64,000 bases of DNA, taken from the NCBI RefSeq assembly GCF_037975245.1, contig NC_092575.1:7101001-7165000 (forward strand), given 5' to 3'. The DNA is from Apostichopus japonicus. Its lineage: Eukaryota; Echinodermata; Holothuroidea; Aspidochirotida; Stichopodidae. Positions 4,501 through 55,985 of the stretch are shown here, piece after piece; position 1 is the stretch's first letter; each line of letters begins with the position of its first letter. The notes under the pieces are model-generated. The model was not told the origin of the DNA. It ran no database searches and saw only the letters and a list, made by a program, of their open reading frames with translations. Both the position numbers and the translations under genes were made by a program.

Positions 4501-7500
4501 GGAATAAAATTATATAATATCATTTCAAATTTTTAAGAGAATTAATTAAAATACTGCACTTGAGCAGAACGGGTTTTGTATTAAAATGTAACCTTGTTGG
4601 AATTCAGCTGTATTGTTATTATATCAAACTATTTTAAATATATACTTTAATGTACCCTTGTTGGAATCCAGCTGTATTGTTATTATATCAAACTATTTTA
4701 ATGTATACTTTTATGAATTCCCCAGTAATGAGGAGAAACTGGCTGTCCAGCAGCACACTTTTGAGAAAAGTTTAGGAAAGTAGGACAAAGCGGGGTTAAA
4801 GTGGAAATTTTAAAATAGATGGAAAAGATACAGCAAAAGTGAGACAGAAACAGATATGTCTCAATATATTCACGCTCGTATTAGATCAAACGAATATGTG
4901 AAATCAAAAATATGAATATTATTGACAATATGCTATTATTATGTTTTTTGCATGTGGGTGCTCAGTTGGTACTTGAGATCCAAATTTATTGTCTACTTTG
5001 AACAACCGCACAGGTGATATGCACATTGCCAACGTTCACAGCAAATCGCTGCACTTCGAAATTGCATGTTAGAGCAAAATAAAAATGTGGGCATTTAGAT
5101 AAAATTGAAGGAAATATATGACAGAGACAAAAAAAGTAGGAAAAATATTAAATCAAGGAGGTATGAAATGATCTTGTCTGTTGTTTGGTGAGTTTAATTA
5201 CAAATTTTAATATAACCAAGACAAGCACTGCTGACAACCATGCACAGGTCAAAGTGCAATTTCAGTTTTCTGCAAAAAGTTAATATTCTTGTGGACGTTC
5301 AAGAGTCAAAAGATGACAATCAGGAACCCGAAAAAATAAATGAAAAATGGAGACTCACTCTCTTCTGGATGTAGTCTTCTGTTACAGATTCGAATCCTTC
5401 GTGGTCCTCCTTCACGGCTTCCTGGGAGAACATGAGGTCATGGTCGGAGATGCCGTATATCGACTCTAATTAAAAAAAAATGAATAAAAGGGAAAGTGTA
5501 ATATTTCTCTTGAAAAACTTCTCCTGCCCTTACCGAATTCTCTCGAATGAACTCTCTTCATGTTCAAACTTACCAACTCTATTCTAATCTCCTCATGTTC
5601 AAAATTACAAACTTTATTCTACTTTCCTCATGTTCAAAATTTCAAACTTTATTCTACTCTCCTCATGGTTAAAATTTCAAACATTATTCTTCTCTCCACA
5701 TGTTCAAAATTACAAACATTATTCTTCTCTCCTCATGTTCAAAATTCAATCTACTCTCCTCATGTTCAAAATTTCAAACTTTATTCTACTCTCCTCATGT
5801 TCAAAATTTCAAACTTTATTCTACTCTCCTCATGTTCAAAATTTCAAACTTTATTCTACTCTCCTCATGTTCAGAATGTCAAACTATATTCTACTCTCCT
5901 CGTGTTCAGTATTTCAAACTTTATTCTACTCTCCTCATGTTCAAAATTTCAAACTTTATTCTACTCTCCTCATGTTCAAAATTTCAAACTTTATTCTACT
6001 CTCCTCATGTTCAAAATTTCAAACTCTATTCTAATCTCCTCATGTTCAAAATTTCAAACTTTATTCTTCTCTCCTCATGTATAAAATTTCAAACTTTATT
6101 CTACTCTCCTCACGATTAAAATTACAAACTTTATTCTACTCTCCTCATGTTCAAAATTACAAACTTTATTCTACTCTCCTCATGTATAAAATTACAAACT
6201 TTATTCTACTCTCCTCATGTTCAAAATTTCCAACTTAATTCTACTCTCCTCATATTCAAAATTACAAACTCTATTCTACTCTCCTCATGTTCAAAATTTC
6301 AAACTTTATTCTACTCTCCTCATATTCAAAGTTAAAAACTCTATTTTACTCTCCTCATGTTCAAAATTTCCAACTTAATTCTACTCTCCTCATGTTCATA
6401 ATTTCAAACTCTATTACATTGATACTGAACTTTCAGTCCTGTTCAGAAAGCAAACTCTACCAACGCTTACAAGTCAAGTGTGATCGGTTTGTGCTCACCC
6501 AGTGAATGTAGGAATGCGATATGACTGTCCAGATTTGTATCGCTCTTTCTGCTAGCTGAGTGCATCTCCTCTAGCTGCTCCTGGGTCTTGGATCTCTTTG
6601 GGTCGTCCAAGAGGAACAGCTCCTTCAAGTCTTGACGACTAAAGTACCTATCATCGAAAAACAAATTCTAAAATTTGATCAAAGAGCACTCGGGATTGAA
6701 TTTTCAACTTTTATAATAACAAAACAGTTGGAAATCCTTTCAGTTTGACTTTAAAAAAAAAATACTATAGAGCATTTGTTTGACAAACAACATTACTTTT
6801 TCAAACTGCAAGAAAATTGAGGATCTATTTGCTGTCAGTACATAGGAAAGTCTTTCTTGTATTTTCTTGTATTTCTCAATAAATTTTCTCTCTCCTTCGC
6901 ATGCTATAAATTACACTTCTTAGAATATCGTTCGCATCCTTTTTTGTGTCAATCTTTGCAACAAGACAACTGTTTTCTATTAAAAAAAAGTTTGGATTAG
7001 TTCTTAGTATACAAAAGAAGTAACAATAACATCACATCAAACACTGGCAAATCTTTAATTGACTTTCTTCATTTTTCTTCTCTCGGTCTGTACACTATAG
7101 TTATACTACGAATGTTTTTTTTCTTGTGTCGTTCTTTTTACCTCGAAGGTTTCCAGCTTTGCCTAAAAGAACCATCAGAATAATAGCCTTTGTTTGTTAT
7201 ACCTGTAAGGGTTCTTTGTTTGTTATACCTGTAAGGGTTCTTTGTTTGTTATACCTGTAAGGGTTCTTTGTTTGTTTTACCTGTAAGGGTTCTTTGAGGC
7301 TCCCGTAGCCTGTTTGGTGATAGAGTCTTTAAAGATCTGTCTGCGGTAAATCTTCTCCTCCACTGTTCCACACGTGATCAGTCGATAGATCACCACTGAT
7401 TTTGTCTGGCCGATTCTATACGCTCTATCCACAGCCTGGTTGTCGGTTGCTGGATTCCAGCTGGGATCGACTGCGGGTGAAGGGACACAATAACATCTCA

Positions 7501-10500: not shown

Positions 10501-13500
10501 TTAGTACAGTACAGTTTAGTACAGAACAGTTTAGTACCGTATAGTACAGTACTGTTTAGTTCAGTACAGTTTAGTACAGTACATTTTGGTACAGAACAGT
10601 ACATTTTAGTACAGCACAGCACAGTTTAGTACAGTACAATACAGTGGAGTAAAATACAGTCACTTGGAGTACATTACAGTACAAAACAGTGCAGTACTGT
10701 ACGGTAATGTACAGTACAGTTTAGTACAGTGCATACAATACAGTACAGTAGAGTATCACACCTACAAATTCATGTTATTTACTGGCTAAATGCCAGAAGA
10801 GTTTGTCAATAGCCAGTAGACAAAAAAGGCAGTTGCATTATGTTTTGGTTAGTAGACACATAGAACATATTACACATCTTAAAAGGATTTTCTGGTGGCT
10901 AAAGTTGATTACTGATCAAAATTGCTGAAAATTTTCTGAATCTAACTGTGAAAACCACATCCTCTTAGTGCTTTGTATTTCGAAGATATGCAAGTTTTAA
11001 AATTAAGTAATATTTTGTAAAAAGCATCTGACAACAAACAGCAGACTGGATTATGTCATCGTGGCAATTCGGCTGAAAATTGTCTTTGTTTTTCTTAATA
11101 ATTTGTCAATCATTTATTCACAAACAAAAAGGATATTTCTACAAAAAAGATGCATTTTGATGAAATCCTAAGTACAGAGAATTTTGACAGCTATGCAACC
11201 ATTCCAAAATGTACCAGGTTTCAAGGGTAAATCAACAAGAAGATTATAATAGCCGAAGTAAAGCTTCCAAAGAGCATTTCACTTTGTTTATCACCAGAAT
11301 ATCCCTTTACGCAGAGTAACAATGTTATTAATCAAAATAATGGCAGGATTTCCATACCTGCAGTAACATAAGCCACCAAATGCAATGGTGATATGCAGTT
11401 AATGTGTTGGTGAGATACAGTGAACGTATTGTGAGATACAGTGAATGTATTGTGAGATGCAGTGAATGTATTGTGAGGTACAGTGAACGTATTGTGAGAT
11501 ACAGTGAACGTATTGTAAGATACAGTGAATGTACTGTGAGATACAGTGAACATATTGTGAGATATAGTGAACTGTTGAGAGATACATTGAACGTATTGTG
11601 AGATACAGTGAACGTATTGGTGAGATACAGTGAACGCACCGTGAGATACAGTGAACATATTGTGAGATACAGTGAACGTATTGTGAGATACAGTGACCGT
11701 ATTGTGAGATACAGTGAACGTATTGGTGAGATACAGTGAACATATTGTGTGATCACTGATGCAGTTAATGTTTTGATGAGATACAGTGAATGTATTGGTG
11801 AGACTGATCAATGACAAACCTCTTTGACTTGGTCAAGCTGGGAGAAGTCTTTGTAGATTTGTATCTGAGTCTCTGTGAGGTACAGCCAGATGATGAAATC
11901 ATTCTTCCTCGTTAGTCTTGGAATACCATTGACCCTCAAAACATGAAGAGAGAAAGTTTGTTGTGACAATATGGTATTATAGATATATGCAAAAACAGCG
12001 GTAATTTTATAATGCAAAGGATGGTAGAATTACCCATGTCCTTTGAATTTTGTATACTAAGCTGTATATATATACCAATATAATATCATGAAAGATAGCT
12101 TGTAGGATATGTACGTATCCAGTCAGTGTTAGCTTGTGAAAACTGTTTAATAGTTTTACAGAGTGAAGTTCACACTACACAAGACCTCTGTTGCACGAGG
12201 GTAACATACTGGATCACACTTTTAGTGCATGTGGGTCAAACACTCTGCCCACTTTACCACATTTCTGGATACAGTCAGCACTATCCGCTACACCCACTCT
12301 TCATTGCACACGGGTCGGATAGACTACCCGTTATAACCTCCTATACTAGACTTGGGTCAGCACTCTATCCATTGCACCACCTCTTCACTGCATGTGGGTC
12401 AAACACTGTACCAACTAAACCACCTCTTCTTTGCCTGTGGATCAGACAGTCTAGCCCCTTACACCTTCTTATTCTATGTACGGGTCGAACACTCTACCAT
12501 GTAACACCACTGCTTCACTACATGTGGGTCCAACACTCCACCCACACACCATCGGGTCACTGCATGTGGGTCAAATGCTCTACCCACTACACCACCTCTT
12601 CATTGCATGTGGGTCAGTCAGTCTATCCCCTACACCCTTTTATTCTATTCATGGGACAACCCTTAACCCTTCACACAATACACCTTGACATCACTGCATG
12701 TGGGTTTAACACTAATCACTACACTACCTCTACATTGCACGTGGGTCAAACACTGTATGCACTACAGCACCGTTTTCACTACATGTGGGTCAGACACTCT
12801 GCCCACACACCATCGTGTCACTGCATGTGGGTCATATGCCCTACCCACTACACCACCTCTTCATTGCATGTGGGTCACACAGTTTATCCCCTAAACCCTC
12901 TTATTCTATTCATGGGACATCACTCAACACTTCACACAATACACCATGACTTCACTGCATGTGGGTTTAACACTAATCACTACACCACCTCTATATTGCA
13001 CATGGGTCAATCACTGTATGCACTACAGCACTGTTTTCACTGCATGTGGGTCAAACACTCTACCCACCGGACACTTTTCACTTACAATCGACATCCTCCC
13101 TCAGATATTGATCCTTCACTTCCACTATCGACAACGGTAGAGGAATTCTGGTTGTTCTCCAAGACATCTGCTTTCGTCCTTCTCAGGAAGTAGGGCTCTA
13201 TAAGGTTTCGAAGACTCTCTGCCATCTCGTTGCCGAGCAGTTTCTCGCTGGAGGTAGCATCTCTTTCCCTCGCCTGAGAGTAGCACAGATAATGCAGTCA
13301 ATTTTATACTATAAATAGCTTAAAACTGTTGGTGATATCATTAATCCTTTAGTACTCTTTCCAATCCCGGACTTGTAAAGCTAAAAGTCTGTATTTTTAC
13401 CTAAGATATTTCACACATCCAATAATTAATATCATAATAATAATAATAATCAGTGGTTATTTTTTACAGACGCTTAAGCGACCACAAATGTGGAAGAAAC

Positions 13501-16500
13501 CCAGGAGGGCTTATGGATTATGACTGACACGTCGGGTGGCTTGCAATTCAACACTTTTAAATTCAAATTTGGAATCTTTTCAAATTAGAGAGTCATTTTG
13601 GATGGGAAAACCATAGCTTGCTCTTGGGATGGGGAACCCACCTTACTTTGACCCGGCCTGGAATCGAACTCGGAACCTCCAGATTACAAAGCCTCATTGC
13701 TTCAAATGCCACCGCCTTTATCCACTCGGCCACATCACCGGTTTATTGATACTACAGTCCCTGCCTTTGCAACCATTCTTACCAAACCACATAATATTCA
13801 ATCATTTCAATCAGGTAAAGATACCTGCTGTTTTGTTGTTACAATCATTTTGCTGCTTCTTTAGAAAAGAAGACATTGCCTGTTCAATCCAATATGGAAA
13901 ATTTTGTGTCCCACACATTTACTGTGAAATGTCTTGTTTGACTTGCAATTCTTTGAAGTTGATCTCTAATTCCACATTTTTTTTCTTTCTTGTAGACTAA
14001 AATTAACAGATTATATCACTTTGTGGCAAATTTAACACAAAAATGAAGCCTTAAGAGATAATTATTGTTTTTTTCCTGAGTATCGCAAGAAATGTACACA
14101 TCACATTTTATCCCTTTTAAATGACCAAAGATTTATTTTTGAAAATTCAAAACAAGAAAGAAGAGTAACATATATCGTCCAAGACCTTGATGGAAACCTT
14201 TCGAAAAGGAACACACTTTTAAATGAGCGAGTACTTTTGACACAAATTTTCAGAAGTAGGAGACGATTTTTAAAGTGAATGAAAAAGACTTTCAGAGGAC
14301 AGTTAGGTCTTACCCTTGTGATAGGATTCCCATACTCCATCATGAAAGTCTTTATGGTTCCTAGGATGCTGCCGTGAGTGACAAAATCAAACAGTGCCCA
14401 CATTTCCTGGGAGATAGAAAAAAAGAATTAAACACAAATGATTTCAACATATTCGCATCATAACCTGCAAGACGTAAAATAATCAGGCTCATCTTCGTCT
14501 TAACAAATAAATTTGTCTGGTTTTCATGAATGAGGATGAGTTGATATTATTTTGTAAAATGTTTTTCAGGTGAGTATCAACTGAGAGTTACCTTAAGATC
14601 AATTTTTTTTGTGGGTGCTCCTTTAAGGATGAATCCATTCTTGTCACGATATGTTTTGCAGGGAATAACTTATACAGTATCGCATCGCGAAATGCTATAC
14701 AGCAGGGTTTACCCAAGTTTATCCCCCCACGAACCCCCTGTGGATGTCAGAGTTGTCCACGAACCCACAACTTTGCGAGACACGATCTGAGTCAATATTA
14801 TACTATAATACGCATAACAGTGCTTCGTAAACGATCAAGTTCATAGTGTATTACTGTAATGATAAAAAAACAAGTGATGAACAACTATTTATTTGGAAAC
14901 TTCCAAGATCAGATCTTTATCTTCATGACGCACTGTCATGTGTACACCAACTTCGTCAAAGTCATGCGGCCTGTGTCTGTTTCATAATTCAGTTATTTAT
15001 CACATGCACTGTACGGTACTACTATGGCAACATATGCATATGGAACGGGAAGAGTTTGACGATTGGTACGACTTTTGTACATTACTAAATTATACGATAT
15101 TTAAATTAGTTCAACAAAAACTACTCTAGTTTTGACTTTCAGAAACGTCTCACAAACCCCCTGGGATGGACTCACCCATCTATCCCCTGGAGGTTCATGC
15201 ACACCAGTTAGGGAACCCCTGCTATACAGCATGGGTAAACTGCTATACAAGTTTAAAAAATGTATAGCATCTTTTGTACACAGGAACCATAGTAATTTAT
15301 ATGAGACAGTTCAGTAAATTCCAAAACTGTTACACAATATGTGAAAACTAAATTATTCGCTGTTTGTGTCAATGGTTCTGTCAGAATGAATCAGTACTCA
15401 CCTTGAGATTATTTTGTATCGGTGTCCCTCAATACTCACCCTGAGATTATTTTGTATCTGTGTCCCTTTCAGATTTAATCCATACTCACCTTGAGATTAT
15501 TTTGTATGGGTGTCCCTGTCAGATTGACTCCGTACTCACCTTGAGATTATTTTGTATCGGCGTCCCTGTCAGAATGAATCGGTGTTTGGCTGGGACGGAA
15601 TGGATGGCCTTGGTCGTCTTGCCGGGGTTCTTGATCTTGTGACCCTCATCGAGGATGATGTAATCCTAGACAACAAAAAATACAACAGAGAAAATGTGTG
15701 TTGACTGTGCAACTAACATATTTACAATAAATGACATTACCTTCATATATCTAAGTGAACTCTAGCATGAAAACATGCCTTTGAAAATTCTTCTTCCATT
15801 CATTAAATTTGTGTAAAAGTAAGTTGGCCTGACGTTTCGATCCTAGCAGGATCTTCTTCAGAGGCTAAATGACAAATAACATACAGTAACAGAAGGGACA
15901 AAAACACGCCCAGAATACAGACAGGTTAATGAGCATGGTGAACACAAAGAGATAGATGTAAGGGGATTAGTAGACAAGGGATGGAGAGAAGAATGAAAGA
16001 AACCAACCGGGGAAGAGGAGAGGTGGAGATAAACAGTAGAGGGACAAATTCATTAAATTTGTCACTGAAATGGGCATGCTGTCAGCAGATGTAGTAAAAC
16101 AAAACTCCTCTTATCCATCGTACAATAAATAGAATTGGCCAACCATCTGTATTTAATTCAATAGGTGCCGCATCAATGCATTCATCTTCAGGGTAACTAC
16201 CAATCCACTAACTGTCCGTTCTTTACCCATATGAATTCTCTGCCATCCAACTGCATAATCTTTTGGAAGCTCGTCAAGACCAGACCGTAGCTAGTTAGAA
16301 GAACACCGCCTCGCCTCTGGACCTTGCAGAGCGCTCTCTCTTTCTCTCTTTTGCTACTACCGTGGAAACATTGCACATTGATGCCAGGTGCCCTAAAGGG
16401 GAAAAAAAAAATTAATTAATTACTTTTAATTTCAAATGAAAGTTTAAAACAAAATAGCGATATTTTTCTAGTCTACTTCATCGAATAAAAACAAAGGGAA

Positions 16501-19500
16501 ATAAAACAGAATGGGTTTAAAAATAAATTATAGCATATGTAGTTCATTTCCAGGGTATATATGAAATCAAATCTGAATGAGAAGAAGGGTAAGTAAAGAG
16601 TACAGGCAATGTAATGCACTTTAACACAGTATGTTGATACCCAGCCACTGACCTAAGGTAGAGATACTGAGGGCAGGGACCATCATTTTTGGAAGGATGC
16701 AATTTCCCATAATATAAGTGTAAGAAGCTCTAACTTGCAAACAAACCAGGTCCAGACTGTAAGAAACTTTTGGTCTGAAATTTTACCTGCATAACGAATT
16801 ATTACTCCAAATAAGACTGCTATTGTTCAAACTAAGATACAGTTTCTACAATGTTCACCAAATTCAGGTTAAGGAGCTAGAAATGTGATTCCATACAGTT
16901 ATGAATTTTGGATCCATTTCATATTAGTATTCATACGTACAAAAAAACAAAAAAAAACTTTTAATTCATTTGAGATGACACCTAACTAATCAATCTAATG
17001 ATCAGTATTCTCAAGCTTTGACATTATCAAATAGCATTTAAATATTAGCCAAAAATCAACTTGAAATGCGACTTAAAAAAAAAAATTAACTTCAGTATCG
17101 TTACTGATTTTCTACCATAGACCTCCTATATAGCTGTTGGTCCCCATACACCAATAATTAACTTAAACTTTTAAGCACTTATTTTGCAGAGAATAATTTA
17201 TCTGGTAGTGCAAAGCAAATGCAATGCAAAAAATGGGCAAGTCACTATACAATTGAGACGCTGCATAGCAGTGTTTTAACACAGAAACCATCCAGCGTTT
17301 TATATGATAGAGATACAGTTCTGAGCCTTCATAACTGCTACGTAAAATTGGAACAATAAATTATTCCCTGTTACAGGTTTTATACAAACAAAACATTGCA
17401 ATCCAGCATTGTCCAACATGTAGTGATACTTAAAAGTCACATTCAGCAATTACAATAAATGTTGAAAAGGCAATCTGTACCATTAACAGTCTACAAGCAA
17501 TGTTAATAATTGGAATAAATAAACCTAATGTGACCATCATACCAGAACATCATATATTATAAACATGGTATAACCAAAACCGTAACACAAGGCTGGTTTT
17601 GTAAGCATGTTTATTGGTTGTTCCTTGGTAAATCCGAAATTCCTTTAAAAGTTGTAAAAAGAGTTTCAGCAATTGTTGTTGACAGGAATTAAATTTGAAC
17701 TGGCATATTTTGCATTTAGATAATATAACTCCAAAGAAAGTTTCATGAAATGTTGTCAAAGTGAACCAATATAGAAACAGGGATGTTCTAGTTACAAAAT
17801 GCTAATATCTGGTGTAAAGTAGCAGAAACTGCTCTGACCGAGCATGCTATCTGGTGTAAAGTAGTAAGTACTGCTTCGTACCATTTTTCAAACTCCCTCT
17901 CCCAATTTATGATGACAGCAACTGGCAGCACGATCAAAACAGATCGGACTTGCTGCATGTCAAATAACCCCGTCAGAAATGCCACCACTTGGATCGTCTT
18001 TCCCAATCTGAAATTTCAAAAAAAAATGACGGTATTGTCAACATTATATATGGAAGTTTGGTTATCATGCAGTACTATTGTTATATATCATTTTTCAGAA
18101 TGATTCAGATATTTAGTCCTTTTTTATTATTAATTTCTAGTCTCTACTGCTGTCTTGAAAGCTCTTTATAAAAATATGACATATATTTCATTTTTTCCTC
18201 TCCTCATATGCTGCTGTATTCTGTCTCCAGCAGACTAAAACACTGTTACCATATCAACTTATCACACTCAGATGCCACCAGTTCCCTTAGGGACCAAATT
18301 AATGTTCTCACCCAACGCCATCATCTTCTAAGACATATTATATATTTGCTACCATTCGTCCCTCTCCTCATATGCTGCTGTATTCTATCTCCAGCAGACT
18401 AAAACACTGAATTATGATATCAACTTATCACACTCAGATGCCACCAGTTCCCTTAGGGACCTAATTACTGATCTCACCCAATGCCATCATCTTCTAAGAC
18501 ACCCTCACAGACTATAGTATTGACTATCGACCCGGTTGCCCAAATACTCTCATCCATTAGTTGCCTCCAATAATGCCATCAACCTTGCCCGGCCCTTATA
18601 ATTACCCTGTCATCTCCTTAGATGTTGACCCTTATGAGCCTATCACCACAATGACACCCTGGTTATACCTCCCATAATATCGACCAATAAGCCCTGTCTT
18701 CGTCTGATTTCATCACCCCAAGATGCCACTATTGACACTTATATGTAATTTCATGCTAACATTACCTTACCTTACTTAAAGCTTATTAACCCCATCTCAA
18801 AAGATATTGCCACTATGAACCCCAACAGTACATCATCTGCTCAGATGCCACCTGATTCCCATACTGAACTTATCCCCTCCCCTCTCATCTATCCCCAATG
18901 ATAGCATCAAGTTTGCCCCTATCCATGATCCAACTCATGTCATCTCCTACATGATAATGATCCTAACAACCACCCAATACAATCTCTGTGTCACCTTCCA
19001 TTACACCATCAATTGTCCCCCTAGGTAGTTTAATACTCACCCCATGTCGTCTCCTAAATAGTATTGATCCTAATAACCACCCATCTTCCCCCCAGCACAA
19101 TCTCTGTGTCACCTTCCATTACACCATCAATTGTTTCCCTAGATAGTTTCATACTCACCCCATGTCGTCTCCTAAATTATATTGATCCTAATTACCACCC
19201 ATCTTCCCCCCAGCACAATCTCTATGTCACCTTCCATTACACCATCAATTGTCCCCATAGGTAGTTAAATACTCACCCCATGTCATCTCCTAAATGATAT
19301 TGATCCTAACAACCACCCAACACAATCTCTGTGTCACCTTCCATTACACCATCAACTGTCCCTCTAGATAGTTTAATACTCACCCCATGTCGTCTCCTAA
19401 ATGATATTGATTCTAATAACCACCCATCTTCCCCAGCACAATCTCTGTGTCACCTTCCATTACATCATCAATTGTCCCCATAGATAGTTTAATACTCACC

Positions 19501-21996
19501 CCATGTCCGCATGTCGTCTCCTACATGATATCAATCCTAATAACCACCCAACACAATCTCTGTGTCACCTTCCATTACACCATCAATTGTCCCCCTAGGT
19601 AGTTTAATACTCACCCCATGTCGTCTCCTAAATAGTATTGATCCTAATAACCACCCATCTTCCCCCAGCACAATCTCTGTGTCACCTTCCATTACACCAT
19701 CAATTGTTCCCCTAGATAGTTTCATACTCACCCCATGTCGTCTCCTAAATTATATTGATCCTAATAACCACCCATCTTCCCCCCAGCACAATCTCTATGT
19801 CACCTTCCATTACACCATCAATTGTCCCCATAGGTAGTTAAATACTCACCCCATGTCATCTCCTAAATGATATTGATCCTAACAACCACCCAACACAATC
19901 TCTGTGTCACCTTCCATTACACCATCAACTGTCCCTCTAGATAGTTTCATACTCACCCCATGTCGTCTCCTAAATGATATTGATTCTAATAACCACCCAT
20001 CTTCCCCAGCACAATCTCTGTGTCACCTTCCATTACATCATCAATTGTCCCCTAGATAGTTTAATACTCACCCCATGTCCGCATGTCGTCTCCTACATGA
20101 TATCGATCCTAATAACCACCCAACACAATCTCTGTGTCACCTTCCATTACACTATCAATTGTCCCCCTAGATAGTTAAATACTCACCCCATGTCGTCTCC
20201 TAAATGATATTGATCCTAATAACCACCCATCTTCCCAACACCATCTCTGTGTCACCTTCCATTACACCATCAATTGTCCCCCTAGATAGTTTAATACTTA
20301 CCCCATGTCGTCACCTAAGATGCCACCTTTCCCCTTCCGGTGGAGTCGCCAGAACCACAGCAGACACTCCCTCTGGTAGGGATACAGTTTCTCATGCACC
20401 TCCCTCATGAGGTGGAATCCTTTACCCACATGTACCAATCCGTTGTCTTCTTCCTCCGAGTCGGAGTTGTCGGCTAGAAAAGCCTAAAAAGACGAGATGA
20501 CCCATCATCGTTAATCCGGGGCTCTAATTGAGGATCAAGAGGGGTACTCACTGCTCAGGCAACTTTCTCAGGGCAGATGTATTAAAAATTCATTTGGATT
20601 TCCATTGAAATGGCAGGGTACCCACATCCATTCTTCAGCTAACTTCAGAAGGAAAAGTTTTCAAAAAATTTCTCAGGGCAACAAGGTATTTTTTGCTTCT
20701 TCATCAAGGTATTTTTTTCTTTTTCATCATGAGAGGAACAAGAATGGAAAACCAGAAATGAGAGCAATCTGGAGAGATTCATGCAATCGTTCATATTATA
20801 ATCATACTGTTTGCTTTTCATACACATTCCTTGCAGCTGCTTAATAGCTCTTTGTTCTGGCAAAGATAATCCTTGAAGTTTTGGACAATTTCTAAGCCCT
20901 TAGTTTTGATGATGTAAGTTTAATAACCCAGTTTGTTATGAGAGCAACTATGGCAACTTGCATAAACGGGCACGGATTTTTATCATCAATAAGTTTGAGA
21001 AACAGTAGCAGAGCCTGAATGATTCATTGAGTATGATTAAAAGGATTTCCTTGTGTTGGAAGGGGGAGAGGGCATTAAACGGCATTCTACTCTTCAAATG
21101 ATATTCCTAACCTTGACTTTTTCAATCCTCTTCAGGACTTTATCTGTCTTTTGGATCGCAGCTGCCTTGACTAAATATTCAAGTGATTCTTTAGGCCGGC
21201 CAGCTTCTGCTGCATCTCTGGCTTTCTTCATAAATCGGTTGTAATGCAGTAACTTTCCAGGCGACACATCACCGATGTGCTGGACATTCTCTATAGCTGC
21301 AGAGATCATGTGTCAAGCCGAGGTAAAGTAAAATTGTGAAATGACGAAAAGAAAGTAGATCTATACTTGGATAAAAAGTTAGTCACATCACCAAATGATC
21401 TGTAACAAACTGTATCTCAACCAAGGATCCATAAAAAAGTCCAAATTTTTGATGGCAAAATCTCATTCCTCAATTTATACATATCTTTAAAGCCTTCAGT
21501 TTTCAGAGAACTTTATTTCATGTAAGTTACGGTACGTCTTCATGCTACGATGAATATCAATTGAAAGGGCCATTGAACTTCATTGTTACTTATCGTGTAT
21601 GAAACAACATTAATTGTTTGATCCTTCCCACTCCATTCCCCCTCCCCTCCCCCTTTACCCCACTAATCATTCAAAGGGCTCTCATGGTCAAACTCAATCA
21701 ACACATTCACTATACATTCCCTTTGTAAGTTAATGTCAGTTACTTACTACACAAACCAATTAACAAAGTTATTTACGGAATACGTTATTTTACTAAGCGA
21801 GAGTCCATTCACCTCTGAAGCTTAATTATGAAATCTCTACAAACTTGTGCTGTGTGTAAACTATTCTTAGAACATACCTTTTCATTGCTGGATTATATTC
21901 AATGGAATACAGTTCCTTCAATTATTATGCAACAAATGAACTTAGTAAGTATCATTCTTAAGACTTACCCTTGAGCGGCTGATGGTGTTGATCCAT
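617..21996 (-). CDS. ERCC6L: ERCC6L/PICH-like SNF2-family DNA translocase, 21 exons, C-terminus outside window
   Basis: The product should be a DNA-dependent ATPase of the SNF2 family that, in vertebrates, coats ultrafine anaphase bridges. Coding exons read on the minus strand: 21996-21969, 21296-21112, 20483-20302, 18007-17882, 16392-16227, 15665-15540, 14406-14314, 13273-13086, 11934-11820, 10237-10116, 9570-9345, 8732-8570, 7470-7281, 6647-6499, 5465-5359, 4426-4192, 3693-3622, 3006-2893, 2347-2276, 1561-1433, 685-617. All junctions are GT-AG and phases agree, giving 952 codons. Order: N-terminal TPR-like segment (about 10-70), Walker A GDDMGLGKT (about 130-138), DEGH box (about 235), [41 protein letters not shown], then an acidic tail with two SUMO-interaction-like exons. 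Human ERCC6L has 1250 residues, so the C-terminal TPR is expected beyond the left edge. The family call rests on [19 protein letters not shown] and [14 protein letters not shown], which resemble ERCC6L more than ERCC6. Confidence 0.93.
2276..3693 (-). CDS. ERCC6L: ERCC6L exons 17-19, acidic tail with first SUMO-interaction-like motif
   Basis: Exon 17 (3693-3622) encodes a Ser/Asp/Glu-rich stretch ([15 protein letters not shown]). Exon 18 (3006-2893) encodes [20 protein letters not shown]. Exon 19 (2347-2276) encodes [19 protein letters not shown], a hydrophobic SILI core followed by acidic residues as in SUMO-interaction motifs. All three exons are symmetric (phase 1-1), so they can be skipped or duplicated without a frameshift. 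The exons were found by frame and splice signals, since this region is poorly conserved. Confidence 0.75.
4192..6647 (-). CDS. ERCC6L: ERCC6L exons 14-16, post-helicase region
   Basis: Exon 14 (6647-6499) encodes [20 protein letters not shown] and [18 protein letters not shown], closely matching the vertebrate FSKQELRELF and HIAYLQSLG stretches. Exon 15 (5465-5359) encodes [20 protein letters not shown]. Exon 16 (4426-4192) encodes [20 protein letters not shown] and is charged and less conserved. Phases run 2, 1, 0, 1. Confidence 0.88.
4590..4712. repeat. Short tandem duplication in ERCC6L intron
   Basis: Two adjacent copies of a segment of about 63 bp containing CTTGTTGGAATYCAGCTGTA and ATTATATCAAACTATTTTAA, with few differences. 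Confidence 0.8.
5545..6417. repeat. 35-bp minisatellite, about 25 copies
   Basis: The unit contains CTCCTCATGTTCAAAATTTC followed by AAACTTTATTCTA, 35 bp long. It fills most of the intron between ERCC6L exons 14 and 15. Variants differ by single bases (ATTAC for ATTTC, CTCTATT for CTTTATT). Because 35 is not a multiple of three and the unit has few stops, it creates long overlapping open frames that are not genes. Confidence 0.95.
7193..7296. repeat. 26-bp tandem repeat made from the exon 13 splice donor
   Basis: Four head-to-tail copies (starting 7193, 7219, 7245, 7271) of a 26-bp unit with TATACCTGTAAGGGTTCTTT on the plus strand. The last copy overlaps the end of ERCC6L exon 13 (boundary at 7281). 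The other three place an exon-like end and a GTA donor inside the intron. Confidence 0.9.
7281..9570 (-). CDS. ERCC6L: ERCC6L exons 11-13, helicase C-terminal lobe
   Basis: Exon 11 (9570-9345) encodes an acidic insert, then [20 protein letters not shown] and [18 protein letters not shown]. Exon 12 (8732-8570) encodes [20 protein letters not shown] and [20 protein letters not shown]. Exon 13 (7470-7281) encodes [20 protein letters not shown] and [19 protein letters not shown]. These are motifs IV to VI of SNF2 enzymes, with both arginines of motif VI (DRAYRIGQ) present, so the ATPase looks intact. Confidence 0.92.
10116..11934 (-). CDS. ERCC6L: ERCC6L exons 9 and 10 (11934-11820 and 10237-10116)
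   Basis: Exon 9 encodes [20 protein letters not shown] and [11 protein letters not shown]. Exon 10 encodes [20 protein letters not shown] and [10 protein letters not shown]. The latter is nearly the same as the vertebrate ERCC6L sequence and anchors the family assignment. Two satellites fill the intron between them. Confidence 0.88.
10356..10757. repeat. AGTACAGTTT satellite
   Basis: Irregular tandem array of AGTACAGT/TTTAGTACAGT units in the intron between ERCC6L exons 10 and 9. Both strands are open because the unit lacks stops in some frames. No coding function is supported. Confidence 0.93.
11399..11800. repeat. 21-bp minisatellite
   Basis: About 18 copies of GTGAGATACAGTGAACGTAT plus one base. 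The array ends about 20 bp from the donor of ERCC6L exon 9 (exon boundary 11820). Interspersed single-base changes separate the copies. Confidence 0.93.
12190..13080. repeat. Approximately 43-bp minisatellite
   Basis: About a dozen or more copies of a unit containing GCATGTGGGTCAAACACTCT and ACCCACTACACCACCTCTT. The array lies directly beside the donor of ERCC6L exon 8 (boundary 13086). It keeps one plus-strand frame open for 355 codons, which I regard as an artefact of the repeat. Confidence 0.92.
13086..14406 (-). CDS. ERCC6L: ERCC6L exons 7 and 8 (14406-14314 and 13273-13086)
   Basis: Exon 7 encodes [20 protein letters not shown] and MEYGNPITR. Exon 8 encodes [20 protein letters not shown] and [11 protein letters not shown], followed by a serine-rich insert before an intron in phase 2. 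Together they are the SNF2 protrusion between the two ATPase lobes. The intervening intron contains a tRNA-derived SINE. Confidence 0.88.
13430..13743 (-). mobile_element. tRNA-derived SINE
   Basis: Read on the minus strand, a tRNA-like head (about 13743-13650) has an A box in TGGCCGAGTGGATAAAGG and a B box in GAGTTCGATTCC, resembling a Ser/Leu-type tRNA. The unit ends in a TTA microsatellite (plus strand ATAATAATAA at 13432-13451). No CCA-ready acceptor stem follows and the unit is about 310 bp long, so it is a SINE and not a working tRNA gene. It lies in an ERCC6L intron. Confidence 0.7.
15375..15585. repeat. Tandem copies of ERCC6L exon 6 donor region
   Basis: Four units sharing TACTCACCTTGAGATTATTT and TGTATCGGTGTCCCT on the plus strand. 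The last unit is the real exon 6 end (boundary 15540). The others (donors near 15399, 15435 and 15486) lie inside the intron and keep the CTCAAG|GTGAGT junction, except for one base change in the second copy. Confidence 0.9.
15540..15665 (-). CDS. ERCC6L: ERCC6L exon 6, DEGH box and motif III
   Basis: It encodes [17 protein letters not shown] through [14 protein letters not shown] (Walker B/motif II and motif III). The second acidic box reads DEGH rather than the DEAH of human ERCC6L; DEGH is also found in ERCC6/CSB. The last 30 or so bases plus the GTGAGT donor are repeated three more times downstream in the intron. Confidence 0.92.
15813..16047 (-). mobile_element. Penelope-type retroelement fragment with hammerhead motif
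   Basis: A 235-bp insertion is flanked by an exact 15-bp target duplication ATTCATTAAATTTGT (15798-15812 and 16048-16062). Near one end, minus strand, is a type I hammerhead core (see next entry), the hallmark of the pseudo-LTRs of Penelope-like elements. No reverse transcriptase or GIY-YIG endonuclease frame is present, so the copy is truncated or non-autonomous. It lies in the intron between ERCC6L exons 5 and 6. Confidence 0.65.
15829..15870 (-). ncRNA. Hammerhead ribozyme motif, type I with minimal stem III
   Basis: Reading the minus strand: GCCT, then CTGAAGA, stem II GATCC closed by TGCTA with GGATC, then GAAA, CGTC, then AGGC. This supplies the two conserved core boxes (CUGANGA and GAAA), a five-pair stem II, a GUC cleavage triplet and a stem I that can pair GCCU with AGGC. 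Stem III is only one to three pairs, as in retroelement hammerheads that work as dimers. It lies in the sense direction of the ERCC6L transcript. Self-cleavage is inferred from the motif only. Confidence 0.65.
16227..16392 (-). CDS. ERCC6L: ERCC6L exon 5
   Basis: It encodes [20 protein letters not shown], then [12 protein letters not shown] and LDGREFIW, equivalent to the FHG...ITTYQML stretch before the DEAH box in vertebrate ERCC6L. Donor GTAAAG, phase 0. Confidence 0.88.
17882..18007 (-). CDS. ERCC6L: ERCC6L exon 4, rest of Walker A
   Basis: It completes Walker A (GLGKT) and continues [20 protein letters not shown], then [16 protein letters not shown], the usual SNF2 motif Ia region. The acceptor is TTTCAG and the donor GTACGA. 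A tandem duplication of about 42 bp starts directly at the donor on the intron side. Confidence 0.9.
18195..20300. repeat. Complex minisatellite with about 115-bp units carrying decoy splice donors
   Basis: From 18195 to 18505 there are two copies of a segment of about 165 bp (ATATGCTGCTGTATTCT..., CACTCAGATGCCACCAG...). From about 18930 to 20300 there are some 11 units of about 115 bp with CACAATCTCTGTGTCACCTT, CATTACACCATCAATTGTCC and ACTCACCCCATGTCGTCTCC. A higher-order period of roughly 570 bp is visible (18980-19540 against 19550-20100). The part ACTCACCCCATGTCGTC copies the end of ERCC6L exon 3 with its donor. Confidence 0.9.
20302..20483 (-). CDS. ERCC6L: ERCC6L exon 3, start of ATPase lobe 1
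   Basis: The exon encodes an acidic linker ([10 protein letters not shown]), the Q-motif-like [16 protein letters not shown] and GGILGDDMG, the first half of Walker A. It ends in phase 2 at a GTAAGT donor. The last 17 exon bases and the donor are the apparent seed of the tandem array on the intron side (see findings). Confidence 0.92.
21112..21296 (-). CDS. ERCC6L: ERCC6L exon 2, N-terminal TPR-like domain
   Basis: The exon encodes [15 protein letters not shown] followed by an amphipathic helical pair ([20 protein letters not shown], then [20 protein letters not shown]). This matches the N-terminal tetratricopeptide-like segment of vertebrate ERCC6L in position and character. In PICH this segment contacts the BEND3/PLK1 side of the complex; here that is inference only. 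Confidence 0.88.
21969..21996 (-). CDS. ERCC6L: ERCC6L exon 1, start codon
   Basis: The first coding exon holds ATG at 21996-21994 and encodes MDQHHQPLK plus one base, followed by a GTAAGT donor. I chose this start because the phase joins exon 2 in frame and because the alternative methionine upstream of exon 2 lies on the intron side of its CTGCAG acceptor. The 5' UTR and promoter must lie above 21996. I could not place a transcription start. Confidence 0.8.
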
Positions 21997-30913: not shown

Positions 30914-33900
30914 GTAAGTTCCGTAACAAATCGAAGAATATTACAAGGATTCGAGTTAAAAGGAAAGACTTTCGAAAGGATCATATAGTTAAAATGAGTA
31001 ACTTTCCTAGGCCAAAAATACCGCGGTCAAGAAAAAACAACCTTGGAGGGGGGTGGGGTGGTTATCCTGTCCATCTTCCAACAATGTTTCCTTCTGCGCA
31101 GATGCAATGGAAGTTTTATCTAAGCCCCACCCCACTTTCACCCCACCCTCACCCACCCTCACCCACCTTACCCCACTTTATTTAATAGGCCTACTTGATG
31201 AGAGAAACGTTTACCAATATTATTAATCACATGCTTACTTCTTTCGCTATATATGTATTTCATTTCTTTCATCTTTTACTTTTTTCTTCTGTTTTTGTGT
31301 GTGTAAGTTTCCTCTTCCACATTCTCGTGGTAGCTCACATGGCCCTATCAGGACACTGTCGCTTACCCACAGAAATCCAACGTTTGAAAGGATGGGGCTT
31401 GACTCCTTCTCAATGTGGAAGCATTTAGAAGAAGAATCAAACACGAAATTACTAAGGTAACAGAAAAGGCGGTTTCATGAATCTGCTGCACCCATGCGTT
31501 ATATAGTCGTTCACAAAACTAGATTTACACCTAATGCTAAAGATTGTTGTAAGTAAGTGACGCAAAATATGCCCACTTCAATTGTGTTTTGAACTCACCT
31601 TGATGTTTGGTTTGTTTACATCTATTCTTCTACTGTAATTGTTTCGCGTGTGCAAACAGAGTGTTCATACTCTAGCTCTCAATCTAATCCTAACCTTTGA
31701 TTGTGTAAATACTACATGATTAAGTATAAGAAAGGTTATCCATTCAGGTCAGAAGGATGGCCTACTTTAGAGGGTTATGTATGTATGTATGTATATGTGA
31801 TCTTCCCGCAAGCAGGAACTCGAGAAAGAAGCCATGGAGGCTTGTAGACTCGCAAGCTGACCGAAGCCAATCTCTCGGCACACATCCATTTAACGTCCAT
31901 GTCAGGAAGTTGTTATTGAACAACACCCTTGCCAGACGACACACATTGCTGTCGGCGGGGAATCGAACCGGGGATCTCATGACTGGGAGACGCCGGCGTT
32001 AACCAGGCTATACACTCCGCCTTTAAACCTCCGTTATACCTCCGTTACAATTAAGCATTTCTTTCTAACTAAATTTGACATCTGAATTTGAAAAAAGGGC
32101 ATCATCTTCATAACCCTAATTAGCTATCTGTAATCAGTATACTTTGTAACACTTCTTAAGTATATTATGGAACGTGTTTACAAGCAGTGCAGTGATGATG
32201 TAGCAAGAGGTTCGACATACATGGTGAACCGACGGTGTCTTTACTGTGTATATAAATTCGGCCCTTAGTTATGATATAGACTATAACTAAACCATGCCGC
32301 GTTGAAACCTTACCCTACACCCTATTGTTTGAATTTAAGCTATACATGAGGAAGATGTATGCAGCTATGGGGCGACGGTCCGAAAACGGTGGGGCGCGAC
32401 TCGAAAGGGGGTTGTGGGAAGTTATCGGTGGGTCGCGAGTTATTGCCATACGTCGAAAAATATGTAAGTCTATTTTTCGGAGCTTACAGGCGGAGGTAGG
32501 TTTCAAGTTATTTTTACATAGTCCAATCTAAAATTCATGCATTCTGAGTATCGCTTCTGAGATGTGGGGATCAGGTGGGGATCAGGTGGGAATCAGGTGG
32601 GTATCAGGTGGGTATCAGGTGGGAATCAGGTGGGAATCAGGTGGGTCGTGGCTCATTCCTCATGGAAGATCCTGGGTCATGGACCGTTGCTATACATATA
32701 TGGGGGAAATGAGGGCTTCAGTGGCGTGTGAAATATTACAATTATTGGACCACGTTAGAATTACACTGATCGTGAATGTTTTCTTTTATGTTGAATTGAT
32801 TTGATTTGATTTTGATTTGATTTATTTGATTTTCCACTGGATATATACATGTGGAGGGAAGTCCTCTAAAAAGCCAATTCAGGCTTAACAAGGTAAAGGA
32901 CTCCCAGAAAGAAAGAAAGAAAGAAAGGGGGGAAAAAAAGAAAAAAAAACATATATACATAAATGAAAATGTAACTAGTGTCTTAATAAAGAATAATTAA
33001 TAACATACAATATAAACGATGTATCAATACTGAGAAATTACTTCTTTTTTTAGTGCTTTTCTAAATGTTTCTTTAGATGGTTTAGATTTTATACTAGCAG
33101 TTAGATCATTCCATGTCCTCATAGCACGATTCTTTAAACTTAACGTACCAAATGTTGTATTACATAAGTTGTGGTGTGCTTGACCGGCACTTCTAGTGCG
33201 GTGACTATGTATGGCGCTGTTAATAGTAAATAAGTCATAAAAGGCTGCAGGAAGTAAGCCATTCCAAGCCTTGTAAAAGAATGTGGCTACATTCAGCCTA
33301 ACAATATCGTTAAATTTTAATAAGTTGAGCAATTTGAAAAGTGAGCTGGTGTGTTCACGATATTCAGAATGAGTTATGTGACGAATGACTTTCTTTTGTA
33401 GGATTTCAAGAGGGTGAAGATAAACATTATGGGTGCCAGACCAGATTATAGAGCAATATGAAAAATGGGGGAACACTAATGTTTGGTAAAGCATTCTAAG
33501 AATATTCTGAGGAAAATAGTGTTTCAACTTAGAAATGATACCAACAGTTTTCGCCACAGTGTTTGCAATATTTGATATATGTTCACACCAAGTAAGTTTA
33601 CTATCAATATAAACTCCGAGAAACTTTATGCTATGTACATGCTTGATAGGCTTACCATCCATTAAAATGTCTTTTTTCCAAGAAAAAGATTTGCTTTTAT
33701 TGAACACAATGTAGCTGGTTTTATCAAGATTAAGTGAAAGCTTATTAGTTGCAAACCAGTCGTTAAATTGATTCAACTCCATGGATACTATGTCATGTAA
33801 AGTATTCAAGTTATTGGATTCGAAAAATATACTAGTGTCATCTGCAAATAAAATAGTTTTTGCAATATTAGAGATATGACAGATGTCATTGATATATATA

Positions 33901-36900
33901 ATGAAAAGAAGTGGTCCTAATATTGAACCTTGAGGAACACCACAGCGGATTTCAGCATAGTCAGACATGGTCTTCTTATACGAAGTATACTGTAAACGTT
34001 TTGATAAGTAGCTGTCCATACAGTTAAGGGTTGGTCCTCTAATACCGTAGAATGATAACTTGTTTAGCAGAATACGATGGTCAATGGTATCAAATGCTTT
34101 TGATAGATCTAAGAATATTCCAATACATGTTTTCTTCTCATCAAGGCTATCGTATAATTTATCAATGGCATCTGCCAGGGCAAGCTCAGTTGAGTGACCA
34201 GGGCGGAATCCATATTGTTCCTTGCAAAGTATGTCATTAGCATCTAGAAAATTTATTATTCTGTTGGACATGAGACGTTCGAGAATTTTGGAAAAGCATG
34301 ATAGAATAGAGATTGGTCGGTAGTTCTCGTAGATATTGGATTCTCCTTTCTTAAAAATGGGTAAGACCTTAGCAATCTTCAGCTTGTCTGGGAATACCCC
34401 AGTGGTGAACGATATGTTACAGATATGAGTAAGAGGGGTGACAATGAAAGGTAATACCTGCTTAACAATATCTGGCTTGAAATCATCATACCCAGCTGCC
34501 TTCTTTGGCTTTAAGCAATGATTCGCAACACGTAAGAGTTCCTCCTCCCTGACAGGGTAGGTGAAAATAGAGTTTCTCGTACTATTATTGCTATACATAT
34601 GGTTGTTTGATTTTGCAGTATGACTGATTTTGCTGGCAAGTGAGGGTCCAAGGTTAATGAAGAAATCGTTAAAACCGTTTGCAATGTCTTGATCGTCGCT
34701 GGTTTCGTGATCGCCGTCTTTGAAAACAGATGGGTACGATGATTTCTTACGGTCTTTCTTAAGAACCTCATTGATTATTGTTTTCTATCTTTTTTGAATT
34801 GTTTTCTATCTTTTTAGGAAAACCGGTACTATTTACATAGATAAGTATCCATTCAGCGATATCGAAGCACGTGAACAATCTGCTATTAGAAATGGATTGA
34901 ATTATGCTATGTTGAGTAGTTCTCAAGTCAGACAGATCTTCCCAGGATTAATTGAAATCCCAGAAGGTCAAAGGGGATACTATGAAAAGGATACACAAAC
35001 GCTGAAAGCAGATAAAGCTATGGCTTGCCTGCATGTAAGTAAAAGTTTAAGATCGCTATCAAATATGCTCTAATGAATCATAAGCGCTCATCTGACCACA
35101 TTAAAGTTGTTGTCTTTATATACCACTTTTTGTCTCCACGCTCAACTTTTGTCCCCTAAAGTGGGTAACTATAAAAATCAAGTGGATTTAGTATTTTTAC
35201 ATCTGGAGTGCAGTAACTTTAAAACAGAAACCAACTTCATGGAGCGATCTTGATCTAACTCAAAGTAACTATAGAGGAAGCTTTACCGATATGCAGCTCC
35301 CAGGGCAGCTGGAAGACATGTTCTTTTCAGTTTGCTGCACGAAGCAAAATCGTCATCGCTGCTTAAGTTTAGAAGAAAACTCAGGCTAGAAACACATGTA
35401 GTTGATAATGGTTTAGTTAAACGATCACTTGGGTTGTGTCAAATTAATCTTCCGTAGATAATTAAGGGAAGGACAATTGCCAAGTTTATTTTACCAGTCT
35501 ATAAAGGCCTTAAACAAACATCAACTTTTTTTCCAAAAAGGATGAATGCCCGCTATTTTGAGATTCACCCTCAGACTACACCCTTAGTGTGCTTTCACAG
35601 TATTGAATTTCGGCTTGATGTTGTCATGTCGCCCTAGTTCGATTAGTTACAAAGGATGGGGGTGGGGATGGGGCGGGGAGTGACTAGCGTAATAAATATA
35701 AACTCATATGTCCATGTACGCCCATAGGCCACCCAATGACCCAATAAACTGGACAAGCCCCTTCTTTTCATTTAGTGTCATCTCTATTTTTCACTTTTCC
35801 TTTGTACAGGAACAAATAAAGGTACACGGGGGTACATTCCACGATGAGGAGAAAGTAGAAGCGGTTATACCAGGAAGTACTGTAACCATCCGAACAAACA
35901 AAGGGACATACACCAGTCGATCTCTAATATTAGCCCCAGGGAGTTGGGCATCTCAACTTCTGCAGCCCCTTGGCGTGAATCCGCCCATTCGTGTGAGTTT
36001 GTATTTTACATATTCTGTGCCAGCCATAAAAAAAACTGTAGCTTTCATATAGAATAGCATGGAAGATGTGGATGTGAAACCTTAAAGATCTGCTTTATTG
36101 GCTCCAATTATAGCACGCTATAGCTAGGAAAGTTTTTGGATTACGTAATCGACCTGCCACGGTCGTAAATCCACCTCAGGCTCCACAATTAGCCTGCATA
36201 GCTTCTTAACGCCATCAGGCTCTTTGTGTTAACACTGTGTGGAATTATGTTCATGTCCACAGTGTAGTTAATCATACAGCGTTCACACAATGACCCTCAC
36301 ACAAGAAAAAATATGTGGCAGACGTTGCAGACTAATTGGTAAAAAGAGATCATTTTACGACCAAGGCAGGTCGATTACATAATCTCAAGAAACTTTTCCT
36401 TGCTAGCGTGCTATAGTTGGGGTATATATAGCAGATCTTTAAGTTGGTAATACTTTGCTGAAAGTAAATGTCCAATTTACATAGGTTGAATGCACGCTGG
36501 GTCATTAGACACACGCTACGTGCGTGCTGGAAAATTACACTAAAGACATTGTATATAAGATATATAATGTAAAGCCCTTTCCTCTCTCTCTATCCGTTTT
36601 TCAGTGGTTTACAAGAAAGCCATACAACATAAGGTTGCGATCTATATTTAGGAATGATATAATTGTCCTCATCATGATTGGACTGAGAAAGTTATCAAAA
36701 GCCGCGTTCATGCTCCTGTGTGGTGCGATACTTGCAAACCATGCCAGTGTATAAACCGCCGTTGTTCCTTTCCATCATCTTGGGTTTGGTCTCACTTGAG
36801 CCATTTTTAGACTGCCTATTCCACTAACTATTACTGTCAGCTTAGAAACCAAAATCTGTTGTTTCTTCTAAATATTGGAAAGTTGGATAGGTTTATAATG

Positions 36901-54814: not shown

Positions 54815-55985
54815 TCATAATAGACAAGGAACTACTCCATCTACGACCTGAAAATTTATCACATAAAACCGGTCTTTATATTCACAGGCTATGTCAACAC
54901 AGCCAATCGTTTTGAGCTTTTGTCCTCCGTACGCGACTAGTTTAGCTTTTGATTTCTTCGGTGGTTCATTCGTTATCTGCTCGTAGATACTTTTACTAAT
55001 CACATTACACTCTGCGCCCGTGTCAATTGTGAAGTTGACTAAACATTCATTTAGAGACAGCTGAACCTCCCAGTTTTTGTCTGTTTTCGGGCCTTTTGCT
55101 TTTTCCACTTTTGTCATACCGATAAAAAATTCAGTTTCACTGTAAGTGTCCGATCCAGTCGCTTGGTTTATCACTCGAATGTCTTTTTGGCTTTGAGATC
55201 TCTGCTTCTTGCTGTTGCTTTGCGTGTACGCCAATTTTTTATTGTTTCGGCATACCACGGCAAAATGATTTAGTTTCCCACACGAATTGCATTTGGCACC
55301 TATCGCCGGACAGTCATGTTCCCTATCCCAAGATCGTCCACATTTGTAACAGTTTCTATTACCACTACTGGTTTGCGATTTTTGTGACTTTCCTCGTGTG
55401 TTAGAGTTATACGATCTTACCTGGTGTATTGGTAAGTTTGTCTCCCCTGCCAATGATTTCATTTGCGCCGAAGTCGCTTCACTGGCGCGGCAAATGTCGA
55501 TCGCTTTGCCAAGTGTTAAAGACTCCTCCCTAAGAAGACGTCTGCGTACTTGGTCATCGTGTATGCCGCATACAATTCGATCGCGAATCAAACCGTCAGT
55601 GAGTTCCCCGAATTCGCATCCTTTAGATTTGTTTCTCAAATCCGTAACGTATTGGTCGATAGGCTCACTCGACTTTTGGTTGCGTGTATTAAAAATATGA
55701 CGCTCCCAGGTAATGTTTTTTTCTTGGCTTACAAAATGCCTCAAACTGATCCATAACTTTGTTAAGTTTCCAGCAATCTCCTTCCTCCTCCCATTTGAAG
55801 GAGTTATAGATTTCTACAGCGTCCTCCCCAGCAATATGAAGTAGTGCTGAAGTTTTTACTTTATCTGTTTTAGCGCTTAGTCCACTAGCTTCCAGATATA
55901 GGAGCAACATCTGTTTCCATTTTCTCCAGTTTTCAGCCAGATTTCCTTGCAGATTTAATGAACTTGGTTGCTTTAACTGATCCAT
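54815..55985 (-). pseudogene. gag: Gypsy gag and protease, broken by a frameshift and a stop
   Basis: Starts with MDQLKQPSSLNLQGNLAENW at 55985. The frame breaks near 55726 in a run of A residues on the minus strand, where a one-base length difference splits capsid into two overlapping frames (55985-55689 and 55744-54815). Downstream are a capsid stretch (NQKSSEPIDQYVTDLRNKSK), two zinc knuckles (CYKCGRSWDREHDC and CNSCGKLNHFAVVC) and an aspartic protease (FTIDTGAECNVIS). A TGA at 54815-54817 then interrupts what looks like a single gag-pol frame. The frameshift could be an assembly error in a homopolymer. Confidence 0.9.

Follow-up and report, generated by a model that had tools for sequence, protein, structure and literature searches.

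Background

Minisatellites that include an exon-intron boundary are known from amphioxus, where they are called mirages and occur in Adh3, the globin genes BflGb6 and BflGb9, TnC and PGBD5 (PMC3087553, PMC3902484). In the available parts of these reports, RT-PCR data for Adh3 and the globins suggest that mirages leave regular splicing undisturbed (PMC3087553), and length instability of alleles is reported (PMC3087553, PMC3902484). A second described system is the human VNTR in intron 18 of ABCA7, with a 25 bp unit present in 12 to about 427 units. According to the available part of its report, retention of a single unit amounts to 2 +/- 1%, and the VNTR is not harmless, since skipping of exon 19 increases with array length (PMC5954066).

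Here we describe a minisatellite at an exon end of an ERCC6L-like gene in an echinoderm, read in a 64 kb stretch of DNA (64,000 nucleotides, hereafter the window). Like the amphioxus mirages, as far as their reports were available, it is a minisatellite-like tandem duplication across an exon-intron boundary (the array reaches 20318 and covers the donor at 20301), its unit joins an exon piece to a splice signal, and its central units are homogenised. The unit sizes also overlap, being 10–160 bp in amphioxus and 26–118 bp in the ERCC6L-like gene. However, the mirages duplicate both 5' and 3' boundaries, while no convincing acceptor case was found in the gene and loci studied here, and the cases known to the available reports come from cephalochordates, while the present host is an echinoderm. 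Compared with the ABCA7 VNTR, as far as its report goes, the array likewise includes the canonical donor and places many similar donors after the true one, but the ABCA7 unit begins at GT without the exon piece that units contain here. Allele lengths and a splicing effect are known for ABCA7, whereas the ERCC6L-like array is known from the sequence of one assembly.

Rogers, and Gao and Lynch, have reportedly treated intron gain through internal tandem duplications that carry splice signals along and place new introns in coding sequence; in the present case, in contrast, an existing intron is lengthened. No echinoderm case of an exon-boundary minisatellite was recognised in the literature searched, a search with most subscription journals outside its coverage. 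The kind of structure is already known from amphioxus, and what may be new is the host group and the bias towards the donor side.

Host gene and lineage

The assembly examined (671.6 Mb; 35 contigs) carries the gene on the minus strand of the window, on contig 15. The peptide of the TPR exon has the ERCC-6-like chain 5jno_B as its best PDB match (E 1.8e-4), and the joined peptides of exons 3–6 match SNF2-rel_dom at 159.7 bits, in agreement with the ERCC6L identity proposed in the initial annotation. "Exon 3", a number taken from that annotation and counted without a fixed 5' gene end, also matches ERCC6/RAD26 in PDB; a second, separate ERCC6-like gene lies on contig 19 (locus L018), so the ERCC6L label stands as far as tested. 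The end of "exon 3" with its donor reads GACGACATGGG followed by GTAAGT. This coding end had been described as GDDMG, and it is indeed what was copied, but the exon stops at GDDM plus GG, the first half of a GDDMG-LGKT motif that is split by the intron, because LGKT sits in the next exon (18007-17882). The features are listed in Table 1.

Table 1. Positions in the window of the exons and arrays of the ERCC6L-like gene, and coding context of the survey loci with donor-spanning arrays
Feature	Position	Strand	Basis
TPR-coding exon, ERCC6L-like gene	21112–21309	-	Read from first ATG; 5jno_B match
"Exon 3", ends ...GILGDDM+GG, array source	20302–20483	-	SNF2 match; PDB ERCC6/RAD26
True 5' splice site GTAAGT, intron start 20301	20296–20301	-	Join to next exon restores GDDMGLGKT
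Donor-spanning minisatellite ("mirage"): true boundary, 11 intact decoys, one decayed distal unit	18936–20318	-	TRF and pattern
Next exon, start (GG)A TTG GGA AAG ACG = G LGKT	17882–18007	-	Motif continuity
Exon with donor GTGAGT at 15539	15540–15665	-	Exon reading
Second donor-spanning array, 38–50 bp units, 3 further donors CTCA(A/G)G then GTGAGT	15391–15580	-	TRF and exon reading
Exon ...SKNPYR with donor GTAAAA at 7280	7281–7470	-	Exon reading
Third donor-spanning array, 26 bp units, 3 further donors TACAG then GTATAA	7188–7296	-	TRF and exon reading
L021, L024 coding context			SNF2-rel_dom (Pfam)
L070 coding context			Kinase, under Pfam's cut-off
L009 coding context			SNF2/BRG1, E 1.4e-4 (PDB); Pfam alone without useful match
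L049 coding context			ARB1, E 0.0014, weakest (PDB); Pfam alone without useful match
L052 coding context			ABCB1, E 3e-18 (PDB); Pfam alone without useful match
L031 coding context			ISWI, E 1.5e-6 (PDB); Pfam alone E 0.12
L018 coding context			ERCC6, searched jointly with next exon; Pfam alone without useful match

The lineage of the host can be read from the mitochondrial contig (16,099 bp), in which TGA reads Trp. When COX1 is read with code 9, 10 of its 11 AAA codons line up with Asn of a mammalian COX1 chain, AAA = Asn being characteristic of the echinoderm mitochondrial code (table 9). The genes, named by eye, follow the order COX1-ND4L-COX2-ATP6-COX3-ND3-ND4-ND5-ND6(-)-CYTB-...-ND1-ND2, with ND6 alone among them on the opposite strand, which is presumably the order of echinoids and holothuroids. 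A bindin match of 110 bits was also found in the assembly. A cephalochordate (amphioxus) host is rejected on the reading of AAA, the gene order and the bindin match; a GFP search gave no match, but its controls were equally silent and it carries no weight here. Besides, mitochondrial COX1 pieces, apparently in two copies, lie on a 31 kb contig (G000:C29:14745-31219), possibly a mis-assembled or duplicated mitochondrial contig.

Structure of the array

Searching the window with GACGACATGGGGTRAGT (at most 2 mismatches) gave 12 matches, all on the minus strand between 19035 and 20312, compared with a mean of 0.03 in shuffled sequence, and TRF reported three overlapping rows with periods of 107–118 that jointly span 18936-20318. 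The first intron bases of the decoy donors are 20186, 20071, 19956, 19849, 19731, 19614, 19499, 19383, 19276, 19158 and 19040, and the spacing from the true donor at 20301 to the last of them is 115, 115, 115, 107, 118, 117, 115, 116, 107, 118 and 118 bp. A minisatellite with about 11 decoy donors, as first proposed, is therefore present, and the proposed unit of about 115 bp holds for the repeat as such, but its length runs from 107 to 118 bp.

The exact 20-mer GGAGACGACATGGGGTGAGT is present in 7 of the 11 decoy units, which bears out the earlier claim that many units share sequence with the exon end; GATGACATG takes its place in 2 units, and 2 units carry an 8-nt insertion ahead of GACATGGG. 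ATGGG directly followed by GTGAGT is found in all 11 decoys, and so is the exon piece GACATGGG with GTGAGT, so that the unit combines a part of the exon, a splice signal and intron sequence, as expected from the proposed tandem duplication of exon end plus donor. Read by eye, the exon piece common to the units is about 20–25 nt long, with one gap and few differences.

A block of five units is present twice, as units 2–6 and 7–11. Between the copies, paired units (u02–u06 and u07–u11) are 93–100% identical, the central units being homogenised, while adjacent units inside a block are 73–90% identical. At the distal edge a decayed unit (about 18936-19000) has 74% identity. In amphioxus mirages the boundary units are spared homogenisation. 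Here, edge unit u00, which includes unrelated exon sequence, is 75% identical to u01, and the inner pair u01/u02 likewise reaches 75%. As read from these letters, the array is a tandem duplication that included the exon end and the donor and was followed by growth and block duplication.

Other arrays in the ERCC6L-like gene

The two further arrays that had been noticed in the gene both span donors (exons ending at 15540 and 7281). Among 15 readable exons (15 donors and 14 acceptors), arrays span 3 donors and 0 acceptors. Three other arrays begin shortly after donors. Their top ends lie at 13067 and 11808, about 18 and about 11 nt past a donor, respectively, and at 6415, about 83 nt past a probable one. 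The 3 of 15 donors spanned in this gene, which was picked for its arrays, compare with 3 of 79 survey loci at a Fisher p of 0.050. The initial annotation had seen a pattern in one gene; donor-spanning arrays are found in other SNF2, ABC and kinase genes as well, and the pattern is not peculiar to the ERCC6L-like gene.

Several other repeats and frames were observed in the window. The array at 12353-13067 has units of about 43 bp, which on the minus strand resemble what we take to be a tRNA A-box region (GGTGTAGTGGGTAGAGTG), perhaps in a SINE-derived repeat. Beyond the readable ERCC6L exons, a large tandem array with periods of 297 and 400 bp lies at 48433-50612. By eye, a long frame at 33024-34784 (minus strand) looks like a LINE reverse transcriptase, and another at 52178-55813 (minus strand) looks like a Gypsy-type gag-pol.

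Predicted consequence of decoy use

As predicted from the letters, use of the first decoy would lead to an in-frame stop (9 arrays) or a frameshift (L021 and L031) in all 11 donor-spanning arrays. In the array of "exon 3" each decoy has a U1 duplex energy of -12.3 kcal/mol, compared with -12.2 kcal/mol at the true donor, and the decoys are strong, as had been stated. Generally, most decoys have the energy of their own true donor (11 arrays; for L021, among the 14 of 33 decoys listed). The decoys at 7188-7296 are weaker (-7.2 vs -8.3 at the true donor), some decoys are weaker than the true donor in L009, L018, L049 and L070, and those of L031 are stronger (-9.2 vs -8.1). Our scripts scored donors and acceptors with weights that had not been trained on the host group, and the same holds for the U1 5' end that they used.

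Survey of other exon loci

The survey covered 79 exon loci of about 3–4 kb each, comprising 49 SNF2/ABC loci (30 of 59 listed matches and 19 of 19) and 30 kinase loci (of 134 listed matches). These loci partly overlap within genes, several kinase loci are close paralogues, and many kinase matches are single-exon. TRF arrays cover 9.6% of the SNF2/ABC loci and 6.5% of the kinase loci, and none of the arrays in the 79 loci is confined to a matched stretch.

The donor of the matched exon is spanned by an array in L021, L024 and L070, a rate of 3 of 79 (95% interval 0.8–10.7%). This is no higher than random placement would give at 6.5–9.6% coverage, and therefore the contrast holds only against acceptors, not against other positions. 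In L009, L018, L031, L049 and L052 the array covers the donor of an adjacent exon, a biased count because these were found via donor-bearing arrays or the context of array starts. L011 and L050 were flagged as donor-spanning by rules and dropped on reading, as their arrays seem to begin past the exon.

In the same 79 loci the mechanical rule found no convincing acceptor-spanning array; its single match, L082, is a short T-rich 10-bp repeat and was set aside on reading. A screen for an acceptor plus an open frame, applied to 73 of 80 arrays (the other 7 reach the locus end), gave 9 candidates, none convincing: six lack a Pfam match, and three were set aside on reading alone, since that of L024 is the donor array itself, that of L033 is short, and that of L060 looks like a repeat within coding sequence. 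Array-end contexts were examined for arrays longer than about 40 bp, among those listed.

In SNF2/ABC loci, array coverage is 13.0% in the first 250 nt downstream of the matched exon, compared with 5.4% in the last 250 nt upstream of it; the corresponding values for kinase loci are 6.6% and 1.0%. Minisatellites less than about 80 nt after a donor, with the donor excluded, were seen in L006 (710-759), L015 (1736), L027 (1705), L036 (2594) and L048 (1699), all in sense orientation. Donor-spanning arrays at or near L(T/S)GTP(I/L)Q were seen in three SNF2-type genes (L021 1604-1641, L024 1591-1653 and window 15540-15580), where the exon sequence may have a tendency to duplicate in tandem.

Strand and donor-acceptor statistics

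In the SNF2/ABC loci, unit consensus sequences contain sense donors of at least 4 bits in 10 of 48 arrays and antisense ones in 1 of 48, a post hoc comparison. In the kinase replication, with the 4-bit threshold fixed before the loci were read, the counts are 3 of 32 (sense) and 0 of 32 (antisense). Matched non-array windows of equal length predict 3.32 sense and 1.58 antisense cases for SNF2/ABC, and 1.24 and 0.91 for kinases. The 13 sense cases exceed the 4.56 expected (Poisson p 0.0009), while the 1 antisense case is not unusual against 2.49 expected. Tested against the background sense ratio, 13 of 14 gives p 0.019, with the SNF2/ABC part post hoc.

A coding donor is demonstrably spanned in 6 of the 10 sense-donor arrays (L009, L021, L024, L031, L049 and L052), the others being L023, two in L036, and L043. 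For the kinase arrays (L054, L072 and L082) a donor span is demonstrated in 0 of 3, and the replication is weak; L070, which is confirmed as donor-spanning, scored 3.3 and fell under the threshold. Donor spans outnumber acceptor spans by 7 to 1 under the rule (p 0.070; 3 to 0 in the window by gene model and 4 to 1 in the survey), and by 6 to 0 after reading of the context (p 0.031). The donor-side signals are consistent yet small.

Origin of the array and alternative explanations

The array is best explained, with a probability of about 0.78, as an ordinary donor-spanning mirage minisatellite that is tolerated through use of the first donor. A segment made of the last 20–25 or so exon nucleotides, the 5' splice site and the intron start was duplicated in tandem, and the array then grew and was homogenised, most recently by duplication of the five-unit block, as the sequence shows. 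The original boundary would stay first in the transcript, and the 5'-most donor would be used while the copies leave with the intron. Since a stop or frameshift is predicted from decoy use, alleles that leak to decoys would be removed. Duplicating a donor would be silent as long as the first donor wins, whereas duplication of an acceptor would put a decoy AG ahead and be purged; alternatively, the same bias may arise because acceptors must be preceded by an intact branch point and pyrimidine tract. The same process probably acts on other introns of the genome, mostly at donors, as the small survey suggests. Against first-donor use, the decoys match the true donor in strength, and in older in vitro work the intron-proximal of two strong donors was reportedly favoured.

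A wider proposal is tentative and falls somewhat short of an even chance. 5' splice sites might be a genome-wide nursery of intronic minisatellites in the host group, with boundary-copied arrays at a few per cent of donors and almost never at acceptors, and this polarity might record that the first of many equal donors wins in vivo.

It is unlikely that the array is functional, its decoys binding U1 or competing with the true donor and so lowering ERCC6L output (poison splicing), perhaps depending on length. GTGAGT is kept in 11 of 11 decoys with a U1 energy equal to that of the true donor, use of a decoy is predicted to give an immediate stop, and the human donor VNTR of ABCA7 has a length-dependent splicing effect, according to the available part of its report (PMC5954066). 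However, another part of the unit, the 17-nt stretch TGTAATGGAAGGTGACA, shows the same invariance over the 11 decoys as the 16-nt donor stretch. This is what homogenisation predicts, and selection on the decoys is thus unsupported. Similar arrays are also present in unrelated genes.

Considerably less probable is a partial assembly artefact in the copy number or presence of the array. A miscount is conceivable for a five-unit block duplicated at 93–100% unit identity, but fixed variants distinguish the units, and the same design recurs in three arrays of the gene and eight elsewhere. Micro-exons, which the initial annotation had suggested, or a new intron under the intron-gain model are improbable to a similar, if anything slightly greater, degree. 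Although each unit has an exon-like end and a donor, and a model of gain by this route is in print in the available part of one report (PMC3087553), the best sense acceptor in an array unit scores -0.2 on our own rough scale and none is credible, so that micro-exons are unlikely; an exon running on into the array encounters a stop codon immediately (GGG TAA). The reverse direction, an exon end derived from an older intronic satellite, has next to no probability: no supporting point was found, the end of "exon 3" codes a conserved SNF2 motif and therefore predates the array that was copied from it, and the 7 assembly matches listed for two units are all at the array (the search skips very common words).

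Significance

The array carries the mirage structure beyond lancelets to an echinoderm and is a counterpart, outside humans, of the ABCA7 donor VNTR, which is linked to Alzheimer's disease. In living animals it is difficult to test which of many equal 5' splice sites the spliceosome selects, and here one transcript with 12 serial donors of near-equal predicted U1 pairing offers a natural multi-donor test of splice-site choice. Ten further arrays of this design were seen in the one genome, of which two lie in the ERCC6L-like gene and eight elsewhere. Use of the first donor alone would support order-of-transcription commitment (or exon definition) over the intron-proximal rule.
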